In this document: positions 56,304 through 56,527 of the stretch, one piece after another
How the letters are laid out: every line of letters begins with the position of its first letter
Numbering within the stretch: position 1 is the first letter of the stretch
Source of the DNA: Microcaldota archaeon
Lineage (GTDB): Archaea > Micrarchaeota > Micrarchaeia > Anstonellales > Bilamarchaeaceae
Length of the DNA stretch: 64,000 nt
Assembly: GCA_018812715.1 (NCBI GenBank)
Contig: JAHJCT010000028.1
Location: forward strand, 1 to 64,000
Direction: 5' to 3'
Program-made: the position numbers and the translations under genes
The notes under the pieces: model-generated
Told to the model about the DNA's origin: nothing
Databases searched by the model: none
What the model saw: only the letters and a program-made list of their open reading frames with translations

Positions 56304-56527
56304 GCGATCGTAGTCTACAGCCTTGAACGGTTTGTTCAAGATTCCCGCTTGAAAGGAAATATCCTTTCATGGGGCACAGAGAACTTCGTTCTCTGTTGTG
56401 CCCGCTCGAGGCGGTCAACGGTTATGATTCGAGATTGCCATCCCGCCTTTTAGTAAAAGGCGGCCCAAAACGGGCTGTAAAACGGAGCGAAAATCTCGCG
56501 GACCGGGTTCGATTCCCGGCGGTCGCA
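56304..56527 (+). tRNA. tRNA-Gly(GCC), apparently interrupted in the D-loop and the anticodon loop
   Basis: Acceptor GCGATCG/CGGTCGC, TAGTCTA, GGTTATGATT, anticodon arm CGAGA-TTGCCA...TCTCG, T-arm CCGGG-TTCGATT-CCCGG, discriminator A. Confidence 0.8.

Follow-up and report, generated by a model that had tools for sequence, protein, structure and literature searches.

A tRNA-Gly(GCC) gene with two archaeal introns, the larger belonging to a hairpin-rich intron family

The interrupted tRNA-Gly(GCC) gene

We analysed a stretch of 64,000 nucleotides (nt) from contig JAHJCT010000028.1 (C22 of the host genome), referred to below as the window, and focused on a tRNA-Gly(GCC) gene at positions 56304-56527. 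The gene consists of three exons and two introns, 224 nt in all. Bulge-helix-bulge (BHB) motifs lie at the exon-intron junctions and the larger intron contains a module of two hairpins. The individual parts are:

56304-56318, plus strand: exon 1, with the acceptor 5' half, positions 8-9, the D-stem 5' strand and the first D-loop nucleotides (GCGATCGTAGTCTAC); pairs with 56520-56526 and agrees with intronless orthologues
56319-56418, plus strand: intron 1 in the D-loop, 100 nt, with the core helix GCCTTGA/TCGAGGC, the hairpin CTTGAAC/GTTCAAG and the inserted two-hairpin module; boundaries from intronless orthologues and the BHB; homologues in other tRNAs
56419-56440, plus strand: exon 2, with the rest of the D-arm, the anticodon stem 5' strand and TTGCCA with the anticodon GCC; from orthologue comparison
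56441-56492, plus strand: intron 2 at the canonical position 37/38, 52 nt, with the hairpins CGCCTTTT/AAAAGGCG and GCCC/GGGC; from the BHB and an orthologous intron in the tRNA-Gly(GCC) gene of genome G008 (locus L044)
56493-56527, plus strand: exon 3, with position 38, the anticodon stem 3' strand, variable loop, T-arm, acceptor 3' half and discriminator A; T-arm and acceptor conserved in relatives
56313-56320, plus strand: 5' half of the D-loop BHB, with the central strand GTCT (56313-56316), the bulge ACA (56317-56319, cut after AC) and the start of the intron helix
56406-56419, plus strand: 3' half of the D-loop BHB, with the intron helix strand TCGAGGC (56406-56412), the central strand GGTC (56413-56416) and the bulge AAC (56417-56419, cut after AA)
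56342-56400, plus strand: two-hairpin module, TTCCC-H1-GGGCAC-H2-GTTGTG; scores 76.9 bits on the plus and 34.3 bits on the minus strand with model R2; supported by covariation

Excision of 56319-56418 and 56441-56492 leaves a 72-nt sequence which ARAGORN calls as tRNA-Gly(gcc). The unspliced gene received no ARAGORN call, and in the scan of the window its score with the Rfam tRNA model was 17.2 bits, below the cut-off, because the introns interrupt the tRNA. The precursor folds 5.15 standard deviations better than its dinucleotide shuffles.

We searched 59 related genomes for orthologues, using the T-arm and the acceptor 3' half as the query. Most genomes of the same genus contain the gene, mostly in an intronless form, and the intronless orthologues of at least 10 related genomes define the exons (for example GCGACCGTAGTCTACCGGTTATGATTCGAGATTGCCAATCTCGCGGACCGGGTTCGATTCCCGGCGGTCGCA in the sister species G011). 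The spliced sequence differs from the G011 gene by one acceptor base, GCGATCG versus GCGACCG, and the pair is kept as U-G for C-G. Neither the T-arm/acceptor search nor a solver combining cloverleaf and BHB fit detected a second tRNA-Gly(GCC) copy in the host genome (G000), a 1.27-Mb draft assembly of 36 contigs that is 90% complete. As only one copy was found, the gene is presumably required to read GGC/GGU codons. A split, trans-spliced tRNA was rejected: all exons lie contiguously within the 224 nt. There is good support for a genuine, required gene whose transcript is spliced, with splicing itself predicted from the sequence.

These results bear out a preliminary description of the locus as a tRNA-Gly(GCC) gene twice interrupted by archaeal introns: the intronless orthologues, the ARAGORN call and the BHB motifs all agree with it. 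The elements it listed lie where it placed them, namely the acceptor halves GCGATCG (56304-56310) and CGGTCGC (56520-56526), the D-stem strand GTCT (56313-56316), the TTGCCA loop, the anticodon stem CGAGA/TCTCG, the perfect T-arm and four hairpins. Its size for the anticodon insert (52 nt) was correct, whereas the D-loop insert is 100 nt long and not about 98. It had named an intact tRNA-Gly(GCC) gene elsewhere in the genome as the finding that would speak against a working gene here, and none was found by the searches described above.

The same description had stated that no canonical BHB could be built at either junction, but relaxed motifs can be built at both. At the D-loop the central helix GTCT/GGTC has three of four positions paired (G-C, U-U, C-G, U-G), the bulges are 3 nt long with cleavage placed between their second and third nucleotides, and seven contiguous pairs (GCCTTGA/TCGAGGC) follow on the intron side. 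At least three of four central pairs together with at least seven intron pairs occurred in 0.035% of composition-preserving shuffles, and none of the alternative boundary pairs nearby matches the quality of this motif while keeping a normal D-loop. For the anticodon intron TTGC (56435-56438) and GCGA (56487-56490) pair at all four positions, with the bulges CAT (cut after CA) and AAA (cut after AA) and a weak intron-side helix. The orthologous intron in G008 has TTGC/GCAA at the equivalent place, with a U-A pair where we observed U-G. A strict BHB occurs in a related short D-loop intron, in the tRNA-Val gene of G006 (L250), where GTCG/TGAC is followed by the 6-bp helix GCCTTG/CAAGGC. The features of archaeal BHB tRNA introns are thus found together: a standard tRNA is restored, BHBs lie at the junctions, and a cognate endonuclease and ligase are encoded.

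Splicing enzymes and tRNA interruption in the host genome

An EndA of 394 aa is encoded in the host genome; among solved structures its best relative, over the full length, is the epsilon2 three-unit EndA of Micrarchaeum ARMAN-2 (4fz2/9w2k; E=3e-135). The host enzyme retains the GTYK motif in the loop specific to ARMAN, which carries Y160/K161; cleavage requires both residues (PMC12397907), and relaxed motifs are among the substrates of epsilon2 enzymes (PMC6379350). RtcB is also encoded. Because its EndA is of the epsilon2 type, the host is probably a micrarchaeon. A second EndA-family protein of 160 aa (L230:1306-1785, G000:C7) is distinct from the epsilon2 enzyme, seemingly lacks the usual catalytic His region and is possibly a structural subunit.

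To find further tRNA genes in the host genome we used T-arm patterns with pairing acceptor halves, followed by the cloverleaf/BHB solver. This yielded 24 convincing genes, 21 with and three without introns; the solver score included the BHB fit, so that a good motif in a solved gene is not independent evidence. A D-loop intron at the same site as in tRNA-Gly(GCC) was present in 12 genes and an anticodon-loop intron in 17, with both in eight. Two intronless tRNA-Ala genes reported by ARAGORN stand outside the 24, and T-loop introns missed by the solver search interrupt tRNA-Gly(CCC) (L245), tRNA-Pro (L143) and tRNA-Thr(GGT) (L156). Since most tRNA genes are interrupted, the Rfam tRNA model detects just 14 in this genome. 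The genome thereby illustrates why standard tools miss tRNAs, and for genomes of this kind tRNA-based completeness estimates are too low.

The preliminary description had placed D-loop introns and multi-intron tRNAs mainly in Thermoproteales. This is too narrow: multi-intron tRNAs have been reported for ARMAN-1/2 (PMC4033280), a report on Asgard archaea gives introns in 92-95% of tRNA genes (PMC11291895), and such interruption is the rule in the host genome. The 16S rRNA gene (L009:1498-2616; G000:C25:37209-38327) reaches a contig end. Its length of about 1119 nt exceeds the 927 model positions covered, so that an insert or intron of about 190 nt is probable.

The D-loop intron family and its two-hairpin module

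The D-loop intron has relatives in other tRNA genes, a feature beyond the observations of the preliminary description. We built the covariance model R1 from three long introns and used it to find further members of the family; isotypes and sites in other genomes were assigned by reading the flanks. Homologous introns were found in the D-loop of tRNA-Val (G008, G009) and tRNA-Gly(CCC) (G015), and in the T-loop of the host tRNA-Gly(CCC) (L245; GGGTTCAAA followed across the junction by AGCTTTG, and GCTGTCAA followed by TCCCGG) and of tRNA-Ser in G021. They share a core of the form GCCTTGAAC-hairpin-GATT...GCAAGGC-TGNCAA (alignment A3). In the same alignment a short core without the module occurs in tRNA-Val (G006), tRNA-Glu (G009) and the host's own tRNA-Thr(CGT) and tRNA-Ser(GGA); in the long form an insert of about 57 nt separates the two halves of this core. 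Similar introns thus occupy the non-orthologous hosts Gly(GCC), Gly(CCC), Val and Ser, as in intron transposition. Because of this similarity the D-loop intron appears to have moved between isotypes and between the D- and T-loop, an argument made earlier for Thermoproteales (PMC4090602, PMC4033280). The larger intron is a member of a previously undescribed hairpin-rich intron family, a variant of the known archaeal BHB introns and of intron transposition.

For the module 13 copies align as TTCCC-H1-GGGCRC-H2-GTYGT (alignment A2). Of the stem cells 97.3% are paired, with changes on both sides in 31 cells compared to 8.6 in shuffles, and sliding controls fall to 41-58% paired. Using the home-made model R2, whose E-values are rough and whose first copies were gathered by hand from introns, we detected the module at E<=0.001 in 20 of the family's 43 genomes. 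Among 303 genomes of the phylum 15 contained it at E<=1e-6, all of them members of the host's family. R2 gave 34 matches of at least 45 bits: 30 in tRNA introns, one unclear and three elsewhere. The intronic placements come from an automatic test (23) or from the flanks (7), and the reversed-sequence control fired for one of 44 matches tested. Fourteen of the 34 matches are sequences from which the model was built or an identical copy; of the other 20, 16 lie in tRNA introns.

Of the 30 intronic copies about 12 run along the tRNA and about 18 against it, and both directions occur at each of the D-, anticodon- and T-loop sites. Since the module occurs in both orientations, a single RNA function can hardly explain its conserved junctions, which point to copying at the DNA level. 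A general requirement that introns be compact, or repair between the arms of DNA palindromes, could account for hairpins maintained by compensatory change in either orientation. Rfam 15 gave no match above the gathering score for the intron or the module, and we found no earlier description of the module in the literature, where most subscription papers fell outside the search.

Outside introns, two identical 63-nt copies with shared flanks were observed in G024 (L272, C74; L290, C108), one of them just downstream of a tRNA gene resembling tRNA-Ile. In the host genome an intergenic region (L292, G000:C36:24200-25900) has two module copies together with pieces like anticodon introns and no recognised tRNA; it may be a relic, or an interrupted RNA gene that escaped recognition. 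Weaker module-like hairpin pairs lie outside tRNA genes at L293 (G000:C24:3698-3749), L294 and L295. The idea that the module is an intron of other known RNAs was rejected: L292, L293, L294 and L295 gave no hit to any Rfam family, and the only hit at L024 was to a nearby tRNA.

Interpretation and comparison with known systems

We consider it very probable that this is a functional single-copy tRNA-Gly(GCC) gene with two BHB-type introns, and that its D-loop intron comes from a family transferred between tRNA genes and sites and was enlarged by the module. The epsilon2 EndA would cut the two 3-nt bulges of each BHB (between C56318 and A56319, A56418 and C56419, A56440 and T56441, and A56492 and A56493) and RtcB would join the exons to an ordinary 72-nt tRNA. 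The D-loop intron would be one copy of a family that spread between tRNA genes and D- and T-loop sites, with the two-hairpin module inserted into its core. The module hairpins are maintained by compensatory change and probably keep this bulky insert off the splice sites; the insert would be tolerated because the entire intron is removed. Several points weigh against this account. Both motifs are relaxed, with the U-U mismatch in the D-loop central helix and no clean intron-side helix in the anticodon intron, and the hairpin CTTGAAC/GTTCAAG competes with the D-loop intron helix. Splicing in the cell is deduced from sequence, the covariation alignment was assembled by hand from intronic copies, and the probable phylum was assigned from EndA only.

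A rival reading addresses the module and does not conflict with the above explanation of the gene. The module may be a small palindromic mobile DNA element that inserts either way, for which tRNA introns are tolerated landing sites and with which the intron family partly spreads. We regard this as possible but not as the expected outcome. The two orientations among the intronic copies at all three loop sites, the empty and filled versions of one core and the identical non-intronic copies in G024 are in its favour. However, no target-site duplication was seen, and the stems diverge strongly between copies with compensatory changes, unlike young copies of miniature inverted-repeat transposable elements (MITEs). 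The obvious candidate for moving the module, the Y1 transposase of IS200/IS605 elements, is a weak one, as its distribution does not follow module copy number and it is absent from the module-rich genomes G004, G008, G009 and G021. R2 gave no convincing match beside the Y1 genes of four loci. The host genome has one such gene (L312, G000:C7:88019-88372). In the empty/filled comparisons TT precedes the module, judged by eye in too few cases to establish a fixed target motif. It is a speculative and rather doubtful extension that a lineage-specific palindromic element lives mainly in tRNA introns, inserts both ways and helps to move introns between genes and between D- and T-loops; if true, it would be a parasite residing in introns and protected by splicing, and would give the spread of tRNA introns a concrete agent.

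Some archaeal tRNA introns carry guide RNAs, and the D-loop insert could likewise function as a non-coding RNA, such as a guide or circular RNA, that is hosted in the tRNA precursor and whose structure is kept for this function. The strong covariation and the conserved single-strand junctions agree with this. We nevertheless consider it improbable, as Rfam gave no match, inverted copies would yield a complementary RNA unfit for one conserved function, and the intron is absent from most sister species with the tRNA gene. A degraded pseudogene with random inserts would account for the failure of standard finders, but the intact and conserved exons, the single copy, the splice motifs and the homologous introns led us to reject it as very unlikely. 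Although the assembly is a draft of 36 contigs, an assembly or binning artefact joining unrelated pieces is scarcely credible and was rejected: the same intron recurs elsewhere in the host genome and in three other genomes (G008, G009, G015).

MITEs derived from IS200/IS605 and repetitive extragenic palindromes are small, bear hairpins and occur in both orientations. The module resembles them in these respects, and no target duplication was seen; it differs in the mismatched Y1 distribution and in stems that covary between copies. In Thermoproteales tRNA introns have transposed (Fujishima 2010, as summarised in PMC4090602 and PMC4033280), and to the extent of these summaries similar sequences lie at several positions of non-orthologous tRNAs there as here. 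The present lineage is a different one, with an EndA of the type known from ARMAN-2 and strong module matches within one family of its phylum, and it adds the core-plus-module build, empty sites and both module orientations. How archaeal tRNA introns spread between genes has been described as unknown (PMC4090602). In this one archaeal family a single intron family can be followed with and without its module, in D- and T-loops, in several isotypes and with the module in either direction. Phylogeny can therefore be used to test the models of intron gain by DNA-level insertion, gene conversion or reverse splicing. The Asgard multi-intron tRNAs (PMC11291895) are alike in that nearly all tRNA genes are interrupted, many at non-canonical sites, and the part of that report available to us describes no repeated intron families or hairpin modules. 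The tRNA-Ile of Cyanidioschyzon merolae has introns in the D-, anticodon and T-arms (PMC9602550), the same three arms that are broken here, in a eukaryote and with no repeated hairpin module in the portion of the account we could consult. Closest are the BHB introns and epsilon2 EndA of ARMAN and Micrarchaeota (PMC6379350, PMC12397907), which share the enzyme type with its specificity loop, the relaxed BHBs and the multi-intron tRNAs; what distinguishes the present case is the long D-loop and T-loop introns with their conserved two-hairpin module.
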